Shown here: positions 5,025 through 39,470 of the stretch, piece by piece | Layout: each line of letters opens with the position of its first letter | Numbering within the stretch: position 1 is the first letter of the stretch | Virus record (IMG/VR): IMGVR_UViG_3300005528_000059 | Span: 1-64,000 of that record | Strand: one strand, 5' to 3' | Length of the DNA: 64,000 nucleotides | Source of the DNA: a virus | Made by a program: the position numbers and the translations under genes | Notes under the pieces: model-generated | Database searches by the model: none | What the model was told of the DNA's origin: nothing | The model's input: the letters and a program-made list of their open reading frames with translations, nothing else

Positions 5025-6551
5025 ATGACTGTACTCGTTGATCTTGCTGGCGTTAGCACTACAAGCACCGGAACAGGCGGACCGTTGGACTTAGGGCCAG
5101 CGCTCGTTGGACATCGGACTCTTGCAGCAGCTAACGCGGCTGGTCAACTACCTAATGGCTCAACACTCTCGTACACGATCCTCAACAATAACCAAGCTGA
5201 GACTTGTACGGGAGTCTATGACAGTACCTTAAATACGTTAACTCGTGTTTTTCGTAATAGTACGACGGGTTCTGCGCTTAATTTGACAGGCACTTCAGAA
5301 ATCATAATTGCAGCCAACGCGGATGATTTCTCAACTTCTATCAGTTATGTACCTTCAACTAGGGCTTTGTCTAGCTCTACGGGCAATGGTTTTACTTTTC
5401 CAATCTTTAGTTCGACTTTAGCAGGTCTTGTTCCCCTTTCCGGAGGAGGCACATCCCTGTTCTTAAGAGCAGATGCCAGTTGGTCTAGTGCAGTGACTTC
5501 CGTTGGAGGTACAGGTTCAGTTTCTGGAATAACATTAACTGGCTCAGTTACAGAAAGCGGTAACTTGACACTGGAGGGAACTCTGTCAGTTGTCGGAGCT
5601 AATTTTGGCTCTCAGACGGCTAACCGAGTTTTCGCGGCACCAAACGGCTCAGATGGAAATCCGTCATTTAGAGCCTTGGTCGCGGCTGATATTCCAACGC
5701 TAAATCAATCTACTACGGGCTCGGCAGCTACCCTCACTACACCGCGAGATATCGCGATGACTGGTGACGTAAGTTGGAGTGTCAGCTTTAACGGCTCAAC
5801 CAATGTGACAGCGGCTGGAACGATCGCTAATGACGCCGTAACTTATGCCAAGATGCAGAACGTGACAGCGAATAGCGTGCTAGCTCGCGCAGCAGCAACA
5901 GACGGCGATGTCAGTGCGATAGCCTTGGCTGCGTCGCAACTGTTCGGTCGTGGCGCTACAGGTGATCTCACTGCTATTACGCTGGGTTCCGGACTTTCCA
6001 TGTCTGGTAGCACGTTGAATGCCGTGAGCTCAGCGGGTAAGCAGACATTGTATATTCCTGCTGAGTATATGAAGTCACGAGTAACGAACGGTCCATCAGC
6101 AGGATTTATTGAAACTGTGAATAATAGGATCAATCTCATAACGCTTGACTTTGACTCTATTACACAAGAGTTCGCACAGTTCCAAGTTGCCATGCCTAAG
6201 TCATGGGATGAAGGCACTGTGACTTTTGAGCCCATTTGGTATCATCCAAGCGCGACAACTAACTTCGGGGTGGTGTGGTCTCTAGCAGGCGTTGCCCTGT
6301 CTGACACCAATGCGCTGGACACGGCGTTTGGCACGGCGGTGCAGGTCACAGACACAGGCGGTACGACGAACGCGCTATACGATGGCCCTGAGAGTGCTGC
6401 GGTTACGATTGGAAATGTGCCTGCTGAAAATGACTATCTGATGTTTCAAATTGCTCGAGTGCCTGCTGACGCGGCTGACACATTGGCCACCGATGCTCGA
6501 CTACTTGGTATCCGTCTATTCTACACGACCAACGCAGGGAACGACGCCTGA
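5025..6551 (+). CDS. Tail fibre-like protein
   Basis: 508 residues. The N-terminus contains ALVGHRTLAAANAAGQLPNG followed by TLTRVFRNSTTG, a pattern common at the virion-attachment end of phage tail fibres. The middle is a Gly/Ser/Thr-rich shaft with FLRADASWSS and TANRVFAAPNGSDGNPSF segments, also typical of fibres. The C-terminal ~160 residues form a more compact beta domain. It overlaps the next fibre gene by TGATG. Likely a host-contact or side fibre. Confidence 0.8.
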   Translation: MTVLVDLAGVSTTSTGTGGPLDLGPALVGHRTLAAANAAGQLPNGSTLSYTILNNNQAETCTGVYDSTLNTLTRVFRNSTTGSALNLTGTSEIIIAANADDFSTSISYVPSTRALSSSTGNGFTFPIFSSTLAGLVPLSGGGTSLFLRADASWSSAVTSVGGTGSVSGITLTGSVTESGNLTLEGTLSVVGANFGSQTANRVFAAPNGSDGNPSFRALVAADIPTLNQSTTGSAATLTTPRDIAMTGDVSWSVSFNGSTNVTAAGTIANDAVTYAKMQNVTANSVLARAAATDGDVSAIALAASQLFGRGATGDLTAITLGSGLSMSGSTLNAVSSAGKQTLYIPAEYMKSRVTNGPSAGFIETVNNRINLITLDFDSITQEFAQFQVAMPKSWDEGTVTFEPIWYHPSATTNFGVVWSLAGVALSDTNALDTAFGTAVQVTDTGGTTNALYDGPESAAVTIGNVPAENDYLMFQIARVPADAADTLATDARLLGIRLFYTTNAGNDA

Positions 6552-9211
6552 TGCTGCGGTTAAATACTCTTTTAGGAGTAGGTGGGCGTCCGATAATCAA
6601 TGACAATGCTTGCCTAGCTTCTCCAATATTCATTGATCCGTCTATTATCGGTACTATGTGGCAAGAGATCACTGGTACGTCTGGCACAGCCGTAGTTGTT
6701 GACGGTCCTGTTGGCTCTATTAGAAACCGAGGCACGCTTGGCGGTATAGCAAGAGCCACGAGCACAGGGCGGCGACCTATACTTAGAAACTCCGGTGGAC
6801 AGTTTTGGCTAGAAATATCTACCGCTACACAATCAGAATTGTCACTTTCCTTCACCTCCCAAGTAACTCCCGTTATTTGGTGGGCAAATGGAATTCGCTA
6901 TGAATCCACGTCTTGGGCTTGGACAGGTTTTGGTTCTTGGAAAACAGAAGCTAGCGCAGATGCAGACTGGGTTGTGGGCGAGCATGTAATAGGGGGTCGC
7001 GTAAACAACACACCATCAATACTTATTACCAGAGGATCTTCAAACAGTAACTCGCAACCTCTCCCGTACTCCCAAGACCACGTCGTTACATTCCTAAGTT
7101 CAAGTTCTGCTAGGGTACTTAGACGAGATTTGCTCCCCTCAAACTCAACAGCAAGCAGCTACGGTAATCACATAGTAGACATAGTGCGGTTTTTTACTCG
7201 ACCCACTGGGGAGCACACTGACGGTCGTTTCTACGGCTTTGTGGCTCGATTCACGCAGCCATCAGTGGCTGAAGAAGAACAAATGATACGATCTATAGCG
7301 CGCCGACAAGGACGTAATCTGAAGTCGTTCGACCTTACATCGATCTCACCAACAATTGGAGCTATTGAAGGTGGAACACCTATAACACTGACAGGTTTAG
7401 GTTTTCCTGCTGACCCTATTGTTACCATCGATAATGTCCCCGCAACAAATGCCGTGAGAGTGAGTTCTACTTCAATAACGGCTGTCACTCCGGCGGGAAC
7501 TTTTGGAAACAAAAATGTCACACTCTTATCAAATGGTGAAGTTAGTACACTAGCCTCTGCGTTTGATTATGGTGTTTTTATACTAGACACTCTGACAGCT
7601 ACCGCTGCTTACAGTACCAGACAAGTTCGCAATGCTTACACGGGTTTCTGCATCCGAGTACGCAGATCAAACGATAATGTAGAATTAAATATCGGATTTA
7701 CTGTTAGCGGACAATTGGACACTGCTGCCTTGCTCGATCATTGCGGTGCAAACAGCGGATTTGTTACGAGATGGTACGACCAGTCCGGCAATGGATTGCA
7801 CTTGGTCCAGGACACTACAACATCACAACCACGTATTGTGAACGCTGGCGTCTTAGAAACACTTGGTGGTGTTCCCGCGATTGTATTCGACGCAACAGAT
7901 GACAGACTAGAAATAGGGACTTGGGGAGACTTATCACAACCCTATACTCAAAACGGTGTTATCAGGACAGCCACCTCATATCCCGGTTTTCCTGCTATGG
8001 TCGGTCCTTCAAATGACTCAACATACACAAATGCTGTAACCTACATAGAGACTAATTTTCGCACTATCGGCCCTTTCACTGATACCAACGGTCCTAGACT
8101 ACCTGTCACAACGACTGAACGACTTGTCTTTACCTCATCATTTGACGGTAATAACACCAATTTTGCTAAAAACGGTGTAGTCACGGCGAATGGCTGGGTA
8201 GGTGGAGGTACTCTTTCCGGTGTGCGCTTGGCGGGTCCGGGAGTGACATATCAGGAAATAACCATATTCGGGAATGTTTTGTCTGTCGCTAATCGTCAAA
8301 TGCTCGAAGCTAATCAAATTGCGTACTTCGGTGTCCCTAGTTTGCCTTGGTCTGGCGTTAATTTACTTGCCGGAGTGAACAATTATGTTTCGGTCGCAGC
8401 AAACGGTACAACTTGGGTGGCGGTCGCGGACTCAACAAACCAAGCAGCGAGATCGACCGACAATGGTGTTACGTGGTCGGTCGTCACGATGACAGCCAAC
8501 AGAATTTGGGAAGATACAGCAGCAAACGGCACAACTTGGGTAGCTGTAGCCTTCGAAGCTGATGCTAACCGTTCTACTGATAACGGCGCATCTTGGTCTA
8601 ATGTTTCGTTGCCATTGTTTGCGGCTTGGCGCGCAGTTGCAGCAAACGGCACAACTTGGGTAGCTGTAGGAACTAACATTAGCCAATGTATTCGATCCAC
8701 TGACGATGGCGCAAACTGGGTAACAGTGAACCTGCCTGCCAATCGTTTTTGGTTCAATGTCACAGCAAACGGTACAACTTGGGTAGCTCTTGCAGGTAAC
8801 GGAACAGACCAATCTGCACGATCAACTGATAACGGAGCATCTTGGACGGCAATCACATTGCCCGCTTCCAGAGATTGGCGCGGTCTGGCGGTCAACGGCA
8901 CAACTTGGGTAGCAGTTGCCACAGGAAATACAAACCAAGCCGCCCGCTCTACTGATAATGGCGCTACATGGTCGGCAATCACTTTGCCTTCTGCTCGAAA
9001 CTGGAGGTCTGTCGCCGCAATAGGTACAACTTGGATAGCGGTAGCGGAGAGCAATGGCAATGAAGCAGCCCTGTCTGTTGACAATGGTGTAACTTGGTCG
9101 TCTGTTGCCTTACCAAGTGCACGAAATCGACGCGCCGTTGCAGCCAACGCGACAACATTTGTGACGGTCCCTTATGGCAATACTGACGCTGCACGAGCAG
9201 TAGTGAGCTAA
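6551..9211 (+). CDS. Large modular fibre/adhesin: IPT + lectin-like + Asp-box propeller
   Basis: 886 residues in modules. Residues ~1-260 are an unrecognised beta-rich head. Residues ~263-340 are an IPT/TIG Ig-like fold (ISPTIGAIEGGTPITLTG). Residues ~345-600 are a concanavalin/arabinofuranosidase-like jelly roll (AYSTRQVRNAYTGFCIRVRR, WYDQSGNGLHL). From ~607 to the end come seven ~40-residue repeats with NGTTWVAVA and STDNGxxW (Asp box), fitting a seven-bladed beta-propeller. Probably a receptor- or glycan-binding virion protein. Confidence 0.85.
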   Translation: MLRLNTLLGVGGRPIINDNACLASPIFIDPSIIGTMWQEITGTSGTAVVVDGPVGSIRNRGTLGGIARATSTGRRPILRNSGGQFWLEISTATQSELSLSFTSQVTPVIWWANGIRYESTSWAWTGFGSWKTEASADADWVVGEHVIGGRVNNTPSILITRGSSNSNSQPLPYSQDHVVTFLSSSSARVLRRDLLPSNSTASSYGNHIVDIVRFFTRPTGEHTDGRFYGFVARFTQPSVAEEEQMIRSIARRQGRNLKSFDLTSISPTIGAIEGGTPITLTGLGFPADPIVTIDNVPATNAVRVSSTSITAVTPAGTFGNKNVTLLSNGEVSTLASAFDYGVFILDTLTATAAYSTRQVRNAYTGFCIRVRRSNDNVELNIGFTVSGQLDTAALLDHCGANSGFVTRWYDQSGNGLHLVQDTTTSQPRIVNAGVLETLGGVPAIVFDATDDRLEIGTWGDLSQPYTQNGVIRTATSYPGFPAMVGPSNDSTYTNAVTYIETNFRTIGPFTDTNGPRLPVTTTERLVFTSSFDGNNTNFAKNGVVTANGWVGGGTLSGVRLAGPGVTYQEITIFGNVLSVANRQMLEANQIAYFGVPSLPWSGVNLLAGVNNYVSVAANGTTWVAVADSTNQAARSTDNGVTWSVVTMTANRIWEDTAANGTTWVAVAFEADANRSTDNGASWSNVSLPLFAAWRAVAANGTTWVAVGTNISQCIRSTDDGANWVTVNLPANRFWFNVTANGTTWVALAGNGTDQSARSTDNGASWTAITLPASRDWRGLAVNGTTWVAVATGNTNQAARSTDNGATWSAITLPSARNWRSVAAIGTTWIAVAESNGNEAALSVDNGVTWSSVALPSARNRRAVAANATTFVTVPYGNTDAARAVVS
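8371..9200 (+). repeat. In-gene tandem repeats encoding Asp-box propeller blades
   Basis: About 120-126 bp units encode NGTTWVAVA...RSTDNGxxWxxxxLPxxR. Six units carry the Asp box and the seventh is a half unit. The copies beginning at 8521 and 8641 share an identical stretch of about 29 bases exactly 120 bp apart, so slippage or recombination could change blade number. Confidence 0.85.
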
Positions 9212-19627: not shown

Positions 19628-19659
19628 AAGCCCGATCCTAGTGCAGGATCGGGCTTTTT
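19628..19659 (+). terminator. Strong rho-independent terminator
   Basis: AAGCCCGATCCT (19628-19639) and AGGATCGGGCTT (19645-19656) form a perfect 12 bp stem with a 5 nt loop and are followed by TTTTT. It separates the DNA-binding gene from the modification cluster. Confidence 0.95.
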
Positions 19660-19677: not shown

Positions 19678-20571
19678 ATGCTTGTGAAGCCAATGTCTAC
19701 TAGACCTAAGACTTACGAAGAAGCCCTGTCTCTTCTGGAATACTATCTTCATGAGAGGGAGAAAATTCGCTTAGCTAAACTCGGGGATAGTCACCCCACT
19801 TCAAGCGACCCTATATTGAAAAAGTATAGGTTTACCAATGTCCTGCGCGCCCACGATCGTACTACTCAATGGGGTGTAGAGAACATCTACAAGCCTTTGA
19901 TGGCTGAGGATGCAGGCGCAGAGATTATTCTTTTGAACGCTGGTATCTTTAGATACTTTGGCACGACTGACTTTTTCAAAGAGTTAGGCATTCAACGCGA
20001 CTTCCAGCCTGAAGTTATCATTGGGAAAGCACGGGAAATGCGCGCTCGTGGCCAGAAAGTTTTTACGTCGGCTTACGTAATCACTAACGGTGGTATCAGT
20101 CTGCCAAAAGAAGAGGTCGTAGTCAACCATTACATCAGGGCATTGTACACTAATATTCCCGAGATTCTAGGGAACTACGAGAACAAATTTGAAATCTACG
20201 CAAAGCGTATGTATCAGCTCAAGGGATTTGGTGGCACAGGTTTCATGACAAAGGAAGTTCTTTCCGATGTCCTCCTGTCAGGTGTAGTAGACTTCACTGA
20301 CAAGTACGAGTGGAGTCCGGTTGGTCCTGGAGCCCTTCGTGGCTTAGGTTGGATGTTTCCGAACAGTCGCCACAATATTCCAAAAGGTGACAAAGCTGTC
20401 CCTCTTCTCCGTATGATTGCCAAGGACTTGAAGTTAGAGCCTTGGATGCCTCAGTTTGGAAAAGAGCTTGACCTTCACGGTATTCAATTTGCTATGTGCG
20501 AGCTTGACAAATATGCGCGAACGCTATATGATGGCGGCGCACCTAAAGCAATCTACAAGCCCTACTTCTAA
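19678..20571 (+). CDS. Thymine hypermodification protein, HMUDK helical / aGPT-PPlase family
   Basis: 297 residues. The family signature is strong: SDPILKKYRFTNVLRAHDRT (43-62), KVFTSAYVIT in the middle, and GPGALRGLGWMF near the C-terminus. Proteins of this family (5-hmdU DNA kinase helical domain, or alpha-glutamyl/putrescinyl-thymine pyrophosphorylase) act in making hypermodified thymine in phages such as phiW-14 and ViI. No P-loop kinase is fused here. It opens a run with a glycosyltransferase-like protein, a ThyA-fold enzyme and an HD nucleotidase. GAGGAGG precedes the ATG. Confidence 0.88.
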   Translation: MLVKPMSTRPKTYEEALSLLEYYLHEREKIRLAKLGDSHPTSSDPILKKYRFTNVLRAHDRTTQWGVENIYKPLMAEDAGAEIILLNAGIFRYFGTTDFFKELGIQRDFQPEVIIGKAREMRARGQKVFTSAYVITNGGISLPKEEVVVNHYIRALYTNIPEILGNYENKFEIYAKRMYQLKGFGGTGFMTKEVLSDVLLSGVVDFTDKYEWSPVGPGALRGLGWMFPNSRHNIPKGDKAVPLLRMIAKDLKLEPWMPQFGKELDLHGIQFAMCELDKYARTLYDGGAPKAIYKPYF

Positions 20572-20585
20572 CTCGGAGCGAAGTA

Positions 20586-21407
20586 ATGACAAAAGAAATG
20601 AGAATTTATATTCCCAGTCGGGGAAGAGCCGACCCACGGCTTCAATACACCTCAAGAATCCTTAACGATGCAGGTATCGTTCATTACCTAGTAGTTCGCC
20701 CAGACGAGATGGAAGCATACCAAATAATGCTCAATCATCATGCCGATGAATTTCGTCACACAAAACTTCTCGATCGTCCAGAGTCCTGCACGAACTTGTC
20801 ACAGACACTTAGCCACTTGATTCGAGTATCCGCAGGGATTGGTGTGAACTGTTTGCTGCTAGATGACGATCTTCGTTTCAGCAGACGTATTAGCCAGAAA
20901 GGTCCAGAACTCCGTAAGGCTGACCCTCAGGACATGCCTGAGCTTATCGCACGCTTAGCAGCACTTCTTGATGGTGACGTGAAGATGGCTGGTATTTCTG
21001 CCCGTACTATGAACCAAAATCGCTATCCTGATACGGTTCAATACTGTGGTCGCCAGATGCAAGCTCACGCTATTGACACAGAGTTTTTCGTTGATGAGGG
21101 TATCGATCCTGCACGAGTTATCTGTAAGTCTGATTTTCACATGACGCTTTGCGTGTTGGAAGCGGGTTATCGTAACGCAATCATTTGTGATTACACCGTG
21201 GACCAAGCTTCTGGCTCGAACGCCAAAGGCGGAGTTTCTACCTACCGCACTGCTGAAGTTATCAATGAGGGTGCAGAGCTGCTAAAACAACTGCATCCCG
21301 ACTACGTTAAGATCGTAGAAAAGGCTACCGTGTGGAAAGGCATGTCTGGCATCCGTAAGGAAGTCAACATCGGTTGGAAAAAAGCTTACAAGGAGGCTAA
21401 GTTATGA
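20586..21407 (+). CDS. GT-A-like glycosyltransferase, TAGT-like, probably for modified base
   Basis: 273 residues. It opens with MRIYIPSRGR, the nucleotide-sugar strand-loop of GT-A folds, and has a DxD-type metal motif in LLLDDDLRF (Asp93-95). A later conserved stretch reads GGVSTYRT. This resembles the TET/JBP-associated glycosyltransferases predicted to add sugars to modified bases. It overlaps the ThyA-fold gene by ATGA. The acceptor is inferred from neighbours to be a hydroxymethyl-type pyrimidine in DNA. Confidence 0.75.
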   Translation: MTKEMRIYIPSRGRADPRLQYTSRILNDAGIVHYLVVRPDEMEAYQIMLNHHADEFRHTKLLDRPESCTNLSQTLSHLIRVSAGIGVNCLLLDDDLRFSRRISQKGPELRKADPQDMPELIARLAALLDGDVKMAGISARTMNQNRYPDTVQYCGRQMQAHAIDTEFFVDEGIDPARVICKSDFHMTLCVLEAGYRNAIICDYTVDQASGSNAKGGVSTYRTAEVINEGAELLKQLHPDYVKIVEKATVWKGMSGIRKEVNIGWKKAYKEAKL

Positions 21408-22465
21408 AGACTATGTTAGAATCTACTCATCCCGATTACGGTCTTTTGTTTATCGCACGAGATGCAATGAACAATTCAGGTTGGATCAAGCGCGATAGTC
21501 GTGCTGGTTTCACAGTTGAGTTTGAAAGCCCTGTGATCGTCAAAAACAGCCGTTACTATATTTCGTCTTCGCCTGTTCGAGATGCTAATCCGTTCTTCCA
21601 TTTGGCTGAGTCCCTTTGGATGCTTGCTGGTCGCCAGGACTTGGACTTTCTTCTTATCTTCAACTCCACCTTCGGCCAGTTTTCTGACGATGGCAAGTTT
21701 GTTCGCGGTTCGGCCTATGGTTATCGCTGGCGTGAATTCTTTGGCAAAAATCAGATTGCTAGTATTATCAATGAGTTACAGAATACTGCGTCGCGTCGTG
21801 CTGTTCTAACACAGTGGTCTGTCGAAGACCTTAACATTGACTCCAAGGACGTTCCCTGCAACACTCAAACGTACTTCCTTGTTCGCAATGGCAAGTTAGA
21901 CATGACTGTAGTCAACCGCTCAAACGATTTGATCTATGGAATGTACGGAAGCAACATTGTTCACTTCTCGATTTTGCATGAGTATATCGCTTCTGCGCTG
22001 AACATCGAGAAAGGCGATTACTACCAAATGTCAAATTGTTTGCACATCTACACGGATAACTCTGTGTTCCAAAAGATGCAAAGCAACTATCGTGCTGACT
22101 TCTCTGCTCCCGAAGTCGACAACGATTTGGCAGGCTATTGTGATAATCCTTACGGCTCATTGGTCCAAGCACCAATTGGTGACGCTGTGCAGTTCATGTC
22201 TGACCTCACTGAATTTTTTAATAAATTCGATGAGTTGCGTAGTACTGCCCCCGATCGTGATGCTCTGGAAGATTTGGGCCTAGCTCTTGGGCAAATCCGA
22301 GATACGACTTCCCCTTTGCTTCAAGATTTCTATCACATGGGCTTAGCCTGGATTTCTTTCAAGCGCAAACAGAAGCCTATTTGGTTGCCGAACGACGGTG
22401 GCACTATCTGGCGTTTCGTCAGTCAGAATTACCTGACACGTCGCAACAGGGAGATTCTTTCTTGA
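21404..22465 (+). CDS. Thymidylate synthase-fold enzyme (TS or dUMP hydroxymethylase)
   Basis: 353 residues, longer than E. coli ThyA (264). Key features: AYGYRWR (104-110), the phosphate-binding Arg pair SRR (130-132), the catalytic Cys152 in DVPCNTQ, RSND (172-175) and Asn184 in YGSNIVHFS. Two points set it apart from ordinary ThyA: the residue after the catalytic Cys is Asn instead of His, and the loop before Asn184 is one residue longer. In a hypermodification cluster a dUMP hydroxymethylase is as likely as dTMP synthesis. AAGGAGG precedes the ATG. Confidence 0.88.
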   Translation: MKTMLESTHPDYGLLFIARDAMNNSGWIKRDSRAGFTVEFESPVIVKNSRYYISSSPVRDANPFFHLAESLWMLAGRQDLDFLLIFNSTFGQFSDDGKFVRGSAYGYRWREFFGKNQIASIINELQNTASRRAVLTQWSVEDLNIDSKDVPCNTQTYFLVRNGKLDMTVVNRSNDLIYGMYGSNIVHFSILHEYIASALNIEKGDYYQMSNCLHIYTDNSVFQKMQSNYRADFSAPEVDNDLAGYCDNPYGSLVQAPIGDAVQFMSDLTEFFNKFDELRSTAPDRDALEDLGLALGQIRDTTSPLLQDFYHMGLAWISFKRKQKPIWLPNDGGTIWRFVSQNYLTRRNREILS

Positions 22466-23022
22466 TACAGAATCTAGCACACTTAGAGGATCGTTTGGAT
22501 ACGGGTGGTGTAACTCGCTACCACGCTGCCCCCGACGTAGAACCTCAGAATATTGCCGAACACTCTTGGAGGGTCTGTCAGACCCTCCTTTTCATTTATC
22601 CAGAGGCTTCTGCTGACTGCATGCGGTATGCCCTTGCCCACGACATGGATGAACGTTTCGTAGGGGATATTCCTTACTTTACAAAAGCAAAATTAGACAT
22701 GTCGGTTGTCGAAGCCGAAGCAGACAAACTGTTAGACAACTTCATGGACTCCACGGATGTCCGTGGAACAAAACTTCAGAAGCACGAAAAACTACTTGTT
22801 GATTTCTGTGATCGATACGAGCTAACCGTTTACTGCCTTAGCCAAAGGACACGCGGGGGACGCCGTATAGCGCTCTCGGGTATTAGTATATGCTTGCGTA
22901 CCCTAGACGAGTTTAGAGCTATAGCTATTAGCGCCCCTGTTCTACGAACGCAAATCTATGCGTTAGCACGCACTATGGAGTTGCTAGTGTACGAGGCAAA
23001 TCTATCTCTAAACAAAAATTGA
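22462..23022 (+). CDS. HD-domain 5'-deoxynucleotidase (YfbR-like)
   Basis: 186 residues from a TTG at 22462 that overlaps the stop of the ThyA-fold gene; AGGGAGA lies upstream. The HD motif is clear: TRYHAAPDVEPQNIAEHSW (His34) and ALAHDMDE (His60-Asp61), with DIPYF next. YfbR-type enzymes remove the 5' phosphate of deoxynucleoside monophosphates. In phages with altered thymine such enzymes can lower a competing nucleotide pool. Substrate not provable here. Confidence 0.85.
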   Translation: MIQNLAHLEDRLDTGGVTRYHAAPDVEPQNIAEHSWRVCQTLLFIYPEASADCMRYALAHDMDERFVGDIPYFTKAKLDMSVVEAEADKLLDNFMDSTDVRGTKLQKHEKLLVDFCDRYELTVYCLSQRTRGGRRIALSGISICLRTLDEFRAIAISAPVLRTQIYALARTMELLVYEANLSLNKN

Positions 23023-23076: not shown

Positions 23077-23520
23077 ATGATTGACCAAGTAGGTGGTAGT
23101 CATTATTCTAGAGCAGGCAATTTCCAGCATTGGGATTTGTGGCTTCTTATTCGACCTTTTGACGGTAACATCCTTATCTACGCAGCTACCAAGTATCTTG
23201 CTCGCCTTGATATGAAAGAGCCTTTGGTGGGTGTTCGTAAGTCTATCTCTTATCTTGAGAAGTATCTTATCCACGTCAAGCAAAAAGCTGCTAATCCACA
23301 AGTGCCGTTTGCTGTCTGTATCTCCCAAGAGCCTACGCCACTTGATCGTATTCTTCAAACGCTTCCAACGGTTGAAACTGACCCACGCATCGTTGGTGTG
23401 TATATCGCTCTTAGCGGACATCCTACCTTGAGTACTGTCGAAAATTGCGTGAAAGTTCTTAAGTCCTACGTCGAGGACGAACAAAGAAAGCCTGTGGCGG
23501 CTGATGCTTTTAACATCTGA
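23077..23520 (+). CDS. DUF3310 protein (T7 gp1.7-like nucleotide kinase family)
   Basis: 147 residues. The first ~70 residues hold the DUF3310 pattern: VGGSHYSRAGNFQHWD, then YAATKYLAR, then VRKSISYLEKYL. T7 gp1.7, in this family, phosphorylates dTMP and dGMP. The C-terminal half is extra and unrecognised. It is placed between the HD nucleotidase and DNA polymerase, fitting nucleotide metabolism. AAGGAGAG precedes the ATG. Confidence 0.8.
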   Translation: MIDQVGGSHYSRAGNFQHWDLWLLIRPFDGNILIYAATKYLARLDMKEPLVGVRKSISYLEKYLIHVKQKAANPQVPFAVCISQEPTPLDRILQTLPTVETDPRIVGVYIALSGHPTLSTVENCVKVLKSYVEDEQRKPVAADAFNI

Positions 23521-25414
23521 TTTTCCAACCAGCCTGCCGAAAATACGTGTTGTCGATACAGAAACATGTGATCCACATCTAAAACGTCGAGGTCCAGGCT
23601 GGCCTTATTATGACGTTGCAGAAGCCGGTATTATTGGGATAGGTGTTTTCTGTCCTGAAAATAACCAGAAATTCTACATACCTATCAATCATGCTAATAG
23701 TGAATGTGTAGATATTGACACTGCAATGCGATGGGCCGAGCAGGTTCTGTTTGATCCTGATTGCACAATGGTCTTTGCCAACGCCGAGTACGACTTAGGG
23801 TGGTTTCATCATCACGGGGTAAAATACAACGGCTTCAAAATTGAGGATGTTCAAGTACAAGCTCCATTGATAAATGAGCATGAGTTTAGCTTCTCGCTCG
23901 AGAATCTTTCTCGACGTAACAAAGTCGCGCAGAAAAACGAAGAGGTACTTCTTCAATATGCTCAACAAGTTGGTATCGCTTCAAAAGATGTGAAAGCATC
24001 GTTGAGGTTCATGCCTGCTGATATCGTTGGGCAATACTGTGTAGACGACTGCATTGCAACATGGGAGAATTTTCAAGCGCAGCTTCCAGAAATGGAACGC
24101 CAAAACCTTTGGAGCATCTACGAGCTAGAGACTTCGCTTATACCGCACATGATCCCAATGCGTATGCGTGGCGTTCGTATTGACCAGGATCGTTGTGAGG
24201 TAGTCTCCAAGCAATTCTTCGATTTGGAGCAAGCGGCTCGCTCGGTTATCAAAGACCAGACCGGCATTCATGTTGAAAGCCCTTGGGCTTCAGCAGAGCT
24301 AGCCAAGGTATTGGATCATGTGGGTATTCCGTACCCTACTACTCCCAAAACTGGTAAACCTTCTATTAAGAAAGACTACATGGAAGGTCTACCTGAGCAT
24401 CCTGTTATTGATGCTATTATCGACTTCCGGAGGTTCAACAAAGCACGCACGACTTTTACTGAAGGCTTCTTTGACGAGTTCTGCATTAAGGGTCGTGTTC
24501 ATACGAACTTCAACTTGTTGAAAAGCGACGAAGGAGGCACCATCAGTGGAAGGTTATCTTCCGACAGCCCCAACATGCAGCAGATTCCTGCACGAGACCC
24601 TGAGATTGGTCCACTCGTTAGGTCGATCATCTTAGCTGAAGAGGATTGCTTATTCGCCTCGTTAGATTATTCCCAACAGGAGCCGCGACATACTGTTCAC
24701 ATGGCTTATCTGTTGCGTAATGCTTCAGCAGCAGTCTTGCGTGAGCAATTCATTCTTAATCCTAAAACTGACTTCCATCAGATGAATTCTGACCTTACAG
24801 GTATTCCTCGTAAGGCAGTTAAGGAAATTGGTCTTGGCCTTGCTTACGGAATGGGCGGGGGTAAGCTAGCTCGAAAACTTCGACTTCCGTTTACTTTGTC
24901 TAACTTCCGTGGCAAAGAAATTGAGAAAGCTGGCCCAGAGGCGCAGGCACTCCTGGATAAATTTCATGCCCGTGCTCCGTACATCAAAGACTTAGGCAAA
25001 GAGTGTAAGAAGGCTGCTCAGTCGCGTGGCTATATTCGCACACCGATGGGCCGAGTTATCCACTTCCCAACAATCAACGGCGAAGTATGGAAGTCTCACA
25101 AAGCACTGAACGGCCTTATCCAAGGTATGAGTGCTGACGAAACTAAGCGAGCAATGGTCATGTGTGCGCAGGCAGGATTCCCATGTGCTTTACAAGTTCA
25201 CGACGAGCTAAACTTTACGCAGTTCAGTAATCCTGAAGACACTTATGTTGTTGCGCAGATTATGCTGGATGCTATGATAACTTCTGTGCCTTCCAAGGTC
25301 GACGTTGAAATTGGTAAGAGCTGGGGTGAGTGTGAGTTGTATGAGTTTAAGACTCATACACTGAAACGTTCTTACGTGGAACGAGATAGCCAGGAGCTAC
25401 TTTATGCAGCATAG
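23504..25414 (+). CDS. Family A DNA polymerase with 3'-5' exonuclease
   Basis: 636 residues. Exonuclease motifs are intact: DTET (18-21), NAEYD, and YCVDD. Polymerase motif A is LDYSQQEPR (Asp388), motif B RKAVKEIGLGLAYG (Arg436, Lys440, Tyr448), motif C LQVHDE (His566-Asp567-Glu568). The residue equal to E. coli Phe762 is Leu444, a variant known in viral PolA and linked to altered fidelity. No 5' nuclease domain is attached; it is the next gene. This is the phage replicative polymerase. Confidence 0.96.
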   Translation: MLLTSDFPTSLPKIRVVDTETCDPHLKRRGPGWPYYDVAEAGIIGIGVFCPENNQKFYIPINHANSECVDIDTAMRWAEQVLFDPDCTMVFANAEYDLGWFHHHGVKYNGFKIEDVQVQAPLINEHEFSFSLENLSRRNKVAQKNEEVLLQYAQQVGIASKDVKASLRFMPADIVGQYCVDDCIATWENFQAQLPEMERQNLWSIYELETSLIPHMIPMRMRGVRIDQDRCEVVSKQFFDLEQAARSVIKDQTGIHVESPWASAELAKVLDHVGIPYPTTPKTGKPSIKKDYMEGLPEHPVIDAIIDFRRFNKARTTFTEGFFDEFCIKGRVHTNFNLLKSDEGGTISGRLSSDSPNMQQIPARDPEIGPLVRSIILAEEDCLFASLDYSQQEPRHTVHMAYLLRNASAAVLREQFILNPKTDFHQMNSDLTGIPRKAVKEIGLGLAYGMGGGKLARKLRLPFTLSNFRGKEIEKAGPEAQALLDKFHARAPYIKDLGKECKKAAQSRGYIRTPMGRVIHFPTINGEVWKSHKALNGLIQGMSADETKRAMVMCAQAGFPCALQVHDELNFTQFSNPEDTYVVAQIMLDAMITSVPSKVDVEIGKSWGECELYEFKTHTLKRSYVERDSQELLYAA

Positions 25415-26328: not shown

Positions 26329-26727
26329 ATGCAAACCTTTCTTCCTTATCCCTGTCTCTACTCTTCTCTACGTTGCCTAGACTATCGACGCCTAGGCAAA
26401 CAACGTCTCGAAGCCAAGCAAATGATAAACGCGCTGACCGGTGCTAGTTCCGGTTGGCGCAATCATCCAGCTACTGTCATGTGGGATGGTTACGTTCCCG
26501 CGCTTATGCACTATCACAATCTGAGTATCGCACTTTGGGTCGAGCGTGGCTATCGTAACACCATGCCCATCTTCGTAATTGACAATAGCCAAGTTCAGTT
26601 ACCTTTCTGGTTTGGCGACAAAGATTTCCACTCAGCTCATCGTGCAGCTTTGCTTTTCAAAGATTACGACTTCTACTCCAAGTACGGTTGGGCAGAAGAA
26701 CCTAAGTTGGATTACCTATGGCCCTAG
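26329..26727 (+). CDS. Pyrimidine-dimer glycosylase-like protein (MSMEG_6728/Pyr_excise type)
   Basis: 132 residues. The whole length matches this small family: MQTFLPYPCLYSSLRCLDYRR opening (first 20 residues conserved), RLGKQRLEAKQ, GWRNHPATVMW, HRAALLFKDYDFY and the ending LDYLWP. Related proteins include T4 endonuclease V-type repair enzymes. In a thymine-modifying phage, base excision could also act on unmodified sites. Overlaps the next gene by 10 bases. Confidence 0.8.
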   Translation: MQTFLPYPCLYSSLRCLDYRRLGKQRLEAKQMINALTGASSGWRNHPATVMWDGYVPALMHYHNLSIALWVERGYRNTMPIFVIDNSQVQLPFWFGDKDFHSAHRAALLFKDYDFYSKYGWAEEPKLDYLWP

Positions 26728-38943: not shown

Positions 38944-39395
38944 ATATGAATTTGGTCATGCTCATGGGCAGGGCTGGTAAAGATGCAGAACGTATTTCAA
39001 TTAGCGATAACTTCTCGTACGTGAAGTTCAGCTTGGCTACTTCTGAGCGATGGCTAGACAAAGCTTCTGGGGAGTGGAAAGAGAAAACTCAATGGGCGAA
39101 CATCGTTGTTCGTAATGACCATTTGATGGAAACTGCGATGAAGAAAGTGACCAAAGGAACTTATCTGATGGTTCATGGAACGTTAGAAACTCGCAGCTAC
39201 GAGAAAGATGGAAAAACGAACTATGTTACTGAAGTAGTGATTCCAAAGTTTGGTGGGGTCCTTAATGTCATCACAGCTAAAGAACAATCTTCGTCGAGCA
39301 GCGGGGACCGAGATCATTTTCCTTCGGCTCCTCCTGCTACTCCTTCAAAGAAAGGCTATCCGTACAATACGCTGGACGACGATATCCCATTTTAG
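38937..39395 (+). CDS. ssb: Single-stranded DNA-binding protein
   Basis: 152 residues. The OB-fold (1-110) follows bacterial SSB: MNLVMLMGRAGKDAE, VKFSLATSERW, EKTQWANIVV, GTYLMVHGTLETRSYEKDGK. A Ser/Pro linker leads to the acidic tip NTLDDDIPF, which recruits replication and repair proteins in Gram-negative bacteria. Its start codon and ribosome site are locked in a hairpin. The stop codon's last base is the first base of the tRNA. Confidence 0.96.
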   Translation: MADMNLVMLMGRAGKDAERISISDNFSYVKFSLATSERWLDKASGEWKEKTQWANIVVRNDHLMETAMKKVTKGTYLMVHGTLETRSYEKDGKTNYVTEVVIPKFGGVLNVITAKEQSSSSSGDRDHFPSAPPATPSKKGYPYNTLDDDIPF

Positions 39396-39470
39396 GCTCA
39401 ATAGCTCAGTGGATAGAGCATCCGCCTTCTAAGCGGACGGTCGCAGGTTCGAATCCTGCTTGAGTCGCCA
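39395..39470 (+). tRNA. tRNA-Arg (anticodon UCU)
   Basis: 76 nt, all arms pair: acceptor GGCTCAA with TTGAGTC (one G-U), D arm GCTC/GAGC, anticodon stem TCCGC/GCGGA with loop CTTCTAA, T arm GCAGG-TTCGAAT-CCTGC. CCA is encoded. It reads AGA (and AGG by wobble), codons that are rare in many Gram-negative hosts and used in this phage. It starts on the last base of the ssb stop codon, so the two are one transcript. Confidence 0.97.

Follow-up and report, generated by a model that had tools for sequence, protein, structure and literature searches.

Which modified base would be made by a virus that carries the helical protein of the 5-hydroxymethyl-2'-deoxyuridine (5-hmdU) kinase systems next to a glycosyltransferase gene, with no kinase in the cassette? 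The question is raised by positions 19,678 to 23,022 of IMG/VR virus record IMGVR_UViG_3300005528_000059, a linear record of 69,408 bases whose first 64,000 nucleotides are the stretch analyzed here (the window). Our reading, to which a probability of about 0.65 was assigned, is that the cassette would replace phage thymine, or part of it, with glycosylated 5-hydroxymethyluracil. The four adjacent genes that an earlier note had named here (HMUDK_hel, TAGT, ThyA-fold and HD) were each recovered by Pfam matches, intact, on the plus strand and at the positions it had given:

19678..20571, + strand: HMUDK_hel protein, 297 aa, proposed 5-hmdU-DNA binding or presenting subunit (PF18723, 1.5e-29, well over the cut-off)
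20586..21407, + strand: TAGT glycosyltransferase, 273 aa, GT-A fold, D93-D94-D95 (PF20691, 2.6e-9)
21404..22465, + strand: ThyA-fold enzyme, 353 aa, predicted deoxyuridine monophosphate (dUMP) 5-hydroxymethylase (PF00303, 3.5e-21)
22462..23022, + strand: HD-domain nucleotide phosphohydrolase, ~186 aa (PF13023, HD_3, 4.4e-10; PHROG 6047/7076)

The ThyA-fold enzyme is 37% identical to the M6-type phage enzymes. Comparison with the PDB placed the CMP hydroxymethylase MilA closest among its solved relatives, followed by Escherichia coli ThyA; among the ThyA chains the best match, 1kzj, has Gly at the Trp80 position and is read as a W80G variant. In thymidylate synthase, Trp80 and Leu143 guard hydride transfer. 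Across the 129 aligned phage homologues (E. coli ThyA numbering), Cys146, Asn177, Arg166, His207 and Tyr209 are present in every one, Leu143 is replaced by Asp in 129 of 129, and a Trp is aligned at position 80 in none (0/129). As Asn177 is kept, Leu143 has become Asp and Trp80 is lost, the enzyme is predicted to be a dUMP hydroxymethylase, as in M6. The changes at Leu143 and Trp80 speak against a normal thymidylate synthase, and with it against the view that the genes are in decay or have a role in nucleotide metabolism alone, the ThyA-fold enzyme making thymidine monophosphate and TAGT and HMUDK_hel acting on targets other than DNA; all four frames are moreover intact with their key residues, and the linkage is conserved across dozens of diverse viruses, which leaves that view highly improbable. 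Hydroxymethylation of dCMP was considered separately. Asp179 is the specificity residue of the T4 deoxycytidylate hydroxymethylase, and cytosine enzymes have Asp where the uracil type has Asn (PMC6400193); the cytosine-marking Asp is Asn in the window enzyme and all homologues, and a dCMP hydroxymethylase was ruled out.

TAGT scored 37.7 bits against PF20691 (curated cut-off, 27.5) and matched the beta-glucosyl-HMC-alpha-glucosyltransferases of PHROG 842 at 7.8e-32. Its AlphaFold2 model (predicted local distance difference test score, pLDDT, 95) was matched by Foldseek to the uridine diphosphate-sugar GT-A enzymes TarP, GnT-I and SpsA in the PDB, and the DDD of its LDDDL motif is invariant across 36 TAGT homologues. 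By its predicted model, TAGT is a GT-A glycosyltransferase with a metal-binding DxD, predicted to place a sugar on a hydroxymethylated DNA base.

The functions of the known kinase route were searched for across the whole 69,408-base record. Neither PF18748 (5-hmdU DNA kinase) nor PF18724 (ADDT, amino acid:DNA transferase) gave a match even at E <= 10. A scan of all frames for GxxxxGK[ST] returned 4 sites only, in the primase-helicase, a RecD-like helicase, a 132-aa frame and a phosphatase-like frame; together with the PF18748 search, it revealed no hidden kinase elsewhere in the 69.4-kb record, in which no radical S-adenosylmethionine (radical-SAM) or pyridoxal phosphate (PLP) enzyme gene was found either. 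The earlier statement that a P-loop 5-hmdU kinase and a radical-SAM partner are lacking thus holds beyond the window, by Pfam searches and Walker-A scan. Its suggestion that the end product may carry a sugar is likewise supported as the best reading, given the hydroxymethylase signatures, the GT-A TAGT with its DDD and the absence of kinase and ADDT.

The following route is proposed. Judging by its active-site residues, the ThyA-fold enzyme would turn dUMP into 5-hmdUMP, and the HD protein, judging by its family, would hydrolyze competing thymidine nucleotides. The 5-hmdUMP would then be raised to the triphosphate by host kinases and incorporated by the phage polymerase, after which TAGT would move a sugar from a host nucleotide-sugar onto the 5-hydroxymethyl group of the incorporated base, and a base-J-like nucleotide would result. 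The purpose of such a glycosylated thymine may be to shield the DNA from host nucleases. T4 beta-glucosyltransferase glucosylates 5-hydroxymethyluracil (5hmU) in duplex DNA only when it is mispaired with G, not when paired with A (PMC4111573), so that 5hmU:A may need extra help; HMUDK_hel, accompanied by no kinase here, would most likely bind or flip 5-hmdU in A-paired duplex and present it to the adjoining transferase.

What the sequence and model of HMUDK_hel say of such a role was considered next to its partners. The AlphaFold2 model (pLDDT 94) matched the helical domains of the 5-hmdU kinases of phiRSL1, PhiW-14 and SP10 in BFVD. Foldseek found no fold match to it in the PDB, and sequence searches of the PDB with HMUDK_hel and TAGT profiles gave chance-level matches only. 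An origin from HhH-GPD glycosylases, an idea prompted by eye by the motif GWGPFMAYEVV ... GPGAxRGLNR, was rejected (hhalign probability of 0.5% against E. coli Nth/MutY; no Foldseek PDB match). Assignment of HMUDK_hel to the amino-acid transferases was rejected as well, because the ADDT of M6 is a separate protein, gp51 (PF18724), whereas the HMUDK_hel counterpart is gp55. When kinase-partnered and glycosyltransferase-partnered proteins were compared, 36 positions were conserved at >= 90% in both alike, and none was conserved as different residues; those lying outside the search motifs described below include Arg27, Asp44, Phe52, Asn54, Arg57, Asp60, Lys144 and Asp197. Since the same residues are kept with either kind of partner, the simplest inference is that HMUDK_hel recognizes or presents 5-hmdU in duplex DNA, and would do the same job with whichever transferase it is paired.

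The recurrence of the cassette was followed by two scans. HMUDK_hel loci were gathered by patterns over two motifs, CExDKYxR and GPGxxRGL, and the nearest 80 were kept; this set is made up of the closest relatives of the HMUDK_hel of the window, which means that its proportions do not hold for the family at large and that it samples more distant members linked to kinases, M6 for example, too sparsely. Among the 79 other viral loci, the partner slot held TAGT in 30, a GT-B enzyme in 25, a GT-B-like protein in 12, a further family (c5) in 9 and a kinase in 2, and was truncated in 1; a recognizable glycosyltransferase was therefore present in 67/79. The GT-B partner family is Glycos_transf_1, with Alr3699 and GlgA as solved relatives, and the second, GT-B-like family aligns with it end to end. 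That family c5 is a glycosyltransferase could not be shown, and it was left without assignment. The kinase matches of both kinase loci fell just under the Pfam cut-off. The IMG/VR scan seeded with TAGT returned a copy of the window at 100% identity and 35 further loci, the latter all with a ThyA-fold gene (35/35), 33 with HMUDK_hel and none with a kinase (0/35); in the two loci without HMUDK_hel, the recovered DNA starts < 0.7 kb upstream of TAGT. TAGT stood together with a kinase or ADDT in 0/152 loci. Among cultured phages the pairing of TAGT with HMUDK_hel was found in Brevibacterium phage LuckyBarnes only, and neither GT-B-type family had a match in cultured phages. Because dozens of unrelated contigs carry the same gene set, the cassette is far beyond chance. 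The arrangement described in the earlier note is no one-off; it proved to belong to a large group whose HMUDK_hel genes lie beside interchangeable glycosyltransferases.

Partner labels mapped onto the HMUDK_hel tree (103 proteins) require at least 20 changes, and 3 changes between kinase and glycosyltransferase; the sister proteins of loci L110 and L115, for example, have different partners. The transferases that appear to have been plugged into the slot are a P-loop kinase, the GT-A TAGT, at least one and probably two GT-B kinds, and c5. A broader proposal, which we hold tentatively and at a little short of an even chance, is that the 'HMUDK helical domain', rather than being part of a kinase, serves generally as a module that presents 5-hmdU-DNA and whose partner slot has been repeatedly refilled; a large class of glycosyl-thymine DNAs, that of the window included, would then be made in the uncultured virosphere without a phospho-intermediate. 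If so, the label of PF18723 would shift from 'kinase helical domain' to 5-hmdU-DNA adaptor, and the frequent occurrence of HMUDK_hel without a kinase would be explained.

Several observations weigh against the proposed route and its presenting subunit. Gathering by motif and keeping the nearest 80 biases both the conservation seen at the two motifs and the partner proportions. The phage genome MW202897 (circular, annotated as complete) combines TAGT with a uracil-type hydroxymethylase and an HD gene and lacks both HMUDK_hel and a kinase, so that a TAGT system can exist without HMUDK_hel. This genome favors the idea that TAGT glycosylates 5-hmdU in DNA directly, with HMUDK_hel dispensable or otherwise used, for example in limiting which T positions are modified, and the prediction that the kinetoplastid base-J glucosyltransferase is a TAGT relative (PMC4111573) points the same way; we nevertheless consider it unlikely, as HMUDK_hel adjoins the transferase gene in nearly all relatives and is conserved as strongly as in kinase systems. 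The HMUDK_hel model also weakly matched aGPT-Pplase1 and ADDT models in BFVD (E from 4e-4 to 9e-3), a resemblance by which HMUDK_hel could itself be an enzyme. In T6, an enzyme of the TAGT family is believed to attach the second, not the first, sugar, a glucose placed on glucosyl-hydroxymethylcytosine (PMC13390438), so the window TAGT might act on a prior adduct. Both points accord with a scheme modeled on the ADDT of M6, which acts after phosphorylation: HMUDK_hel would be a transferase that first replaces or derivatizes the 5-hydroxymethyl group, TAGT would then add the sugar, and the product would not be simply glycosyl-5-hmdU. The invariant Arg, Asp, Lys, Cys and Glu of HMUDK_hel look catalytic, and extra radical-SAM/SPASM or FkbM methyltransferase genes in some relatives are also in keeping with this scheme. 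It is improbable, however, for the window has no hydroxymethyl-activating gene (no kinase), an unchanged set of HMUDK_hel residues is found next to kinases, whose chemistry is phosphorylation, and MW202897 manages without HMUDK_hel. Direct glycosylation of 5-hmdU presented by HMUDK_hel is retained as the reading.

Additional genes were seen within some of the related cassettes. In 19 loci with TAGT, GT-B or c5 as the partner (L046, L059, L070, L075, L078, L084, L096, L102, L120 and L123 among them), HMUDK_hel and ThyA are separated by a radical-SAM/SPASM gene, which suggests further tailoring of the adduct. An FkbM-type methyltransferase gene was found within the cassette in L046, L047, L066, L075, L078 and L094 and possibly O-methylates the sugar. 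Downstream of TAGT at L071:8707-12155 come a weak APH-like phosphotransferase, a 182-aa open reading frame, a MobA-like NTP transferase and then Nmad5; the genes between TAGT and Nmad5 are perhaps a private nucleotide-sugar pathway. In five bacterial contigs, mostly alphaproteobacterial (L133-L137), a ThyA-fold gene directly follows HMUDK_hel, with neither a kinase nor a glycosyltransferase. These pairs might be prophage remnants or have a use in defense, the latter because systems validated with DefensePredictor hold '5hmdUk' and a thymidylate synthase domain (PMC13092281).

The surroundings of the cassette were annotated as follows:

19628..19656, + strand: intrinsic-terminator-like hairpin with a 12-bp stem and T tail, upstream of the cassette (from sequence)
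23077..23520, + strand: DUF3310-like protein (weak homology to the DUF3310 gene of L006, PHROG 5839; synteny)
23504..25414, + strand: DNA polymerase I, PolA (closest to Mesyanzhinovviridae polymerases, ~39%)

The hairpin at 19628-19656 has the longest stem in its region, where the total count of such hairpins is not above chance. TAGT and ThyA share an ATGA in which the stop of the former overlaps the start of the latter; with this overlap and the upstream hairpin, the cassette looks like a translationally coupled unit of its own. For the HD gene, TTG 22462 is the probable start rather than TTG 22381 (a longer frame), since the former overlaps the ThyA stop by TTGA and has GGGAG upstream. Inside the HD gene, at 22568-22588, lies a perfect 9-bp hairpin, GGAGGGTCT-GTC-AGACCCTCC, followed by T-rich sequence. 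A few genes 3' of the cassette (26329-26727) is a pyrimidine dimer DNA glycosylase of the T4 endonuclease V type (PF03013, 2.8e-22). Elsewhere in the window, an 886-aa tail-region protein (6551-9211) with TIG and BNR/sortilin-like repeats matches the alpha-L-arabinofuranosidase B catalytic domain (7.9e-8), and a tRNA-Arg (TCT) at 39395-39470 is the sole tRNA gene in the virus. The same virus was recovered again in another contig (L008/L044, 100% identity), and a nucleotide search of phage records returned no close relatives of the window.

Among known systems, the cassette is most readily set beside the 5-(2-aminoethyl)-2'-deoxyuridine (5-NedU) cassette of M6 and Yuavirus (Mesyanzhinovviridae), with which it shares HMUDK_hel (gp55), the ThyA-fold enzyme (gp58), HD (gp59), the DUF3310-like gene and PolA in the same order. 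The Mesyanzhinovviridae block, HMUDK_hel-(X)-ThyA-HD-DUF3310-PolA, is thus present in the window, and the placement of DUF3310 is also that of Rhizobium phage RHph_I65. A Pfam scan of M6 identified gp51 as ADDT, gp52 as a PLP enzyme, gp54 as the P-loop kinase, gp55 as HMUDK_hel and gp56 as Nmad5; gp53 we take to be a radical-SAM enzyme. Unlike M6, the window lacks the functions of gp51-54 and gp56, and TAGT occupies the slot before ThyA. The virus is a mosaic, because its PolA is closest to Mesyanzhinovviridae and its terminase to other phages; membership of the whole virus in that family is not claimed.

The cultured phage LuckyBarnes resembles the window in having the ThyA-fold, TAGT and HMUDK_hel genes adjacent and, over the 50 kb examined, neither a kinase nor ADDT. 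It differs in its two tandem TAGT genes, reversed gene order, lack of HD and a TAGT identity of only 26%, and its ThyA-fold protein (locus L002:6448-9609) is longer, at 517 aa with an extra C-terminal half. The uncultured IMG/VR viruses (L009-L043, L046-L124) share the arrangement HMUDK_hel - glycosyltransferase - ThyA-fold, mostly with HD; their partner is TAGT, GT-B or other, and many add a dUTPase, radical-SAM/SPASM or methyltransferase gene. A constant core of HMUDK_hel and hydroxymethylase with an exchangeable, mostly glycosyltransferase partner appears to be a new form of thymidine hypermodification, an earlier mention of which is possible.

The T6-type beta-glucosyl-HMC-alpha-glucosyltransferase is of the same family as the window TAGT (PF20691, PHROG 842), but it acts on glucosylated 5-hydroxymethylcytosine in phages with a dCMP hydroxymethylase, whereas the window ThyA-fold enzyme is of the uracil type by its residues. 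Bacillus phage SP-15 also has a sugar-bearing modified thymine in its DNA (PMC5977210); there the sugar is on a dihydroxypentyl chain, and other sugar-metabolism genes are involved. Kinetoplastid base J is like the predicted product of the window, a sugar on 5-hydroxymethyluracil in DNA, but JBP/TET dioxygenases produce its 5-hmU within DNA, with no HMUDK_hel known there, whereas the window ThyA-fold enzyme is predicted to act at the nucleotide level. If the reading is true, a base-J-like thymine would be reached by a route unseen in the kinase-based systems of M6, ViI and PhiW-14, namely 5-hmdU synthesis at the nucleotide level followed by direct glycosylation in DNA, and the group would supply exchangeable enzymes for labeling 5-hmU in DNA.

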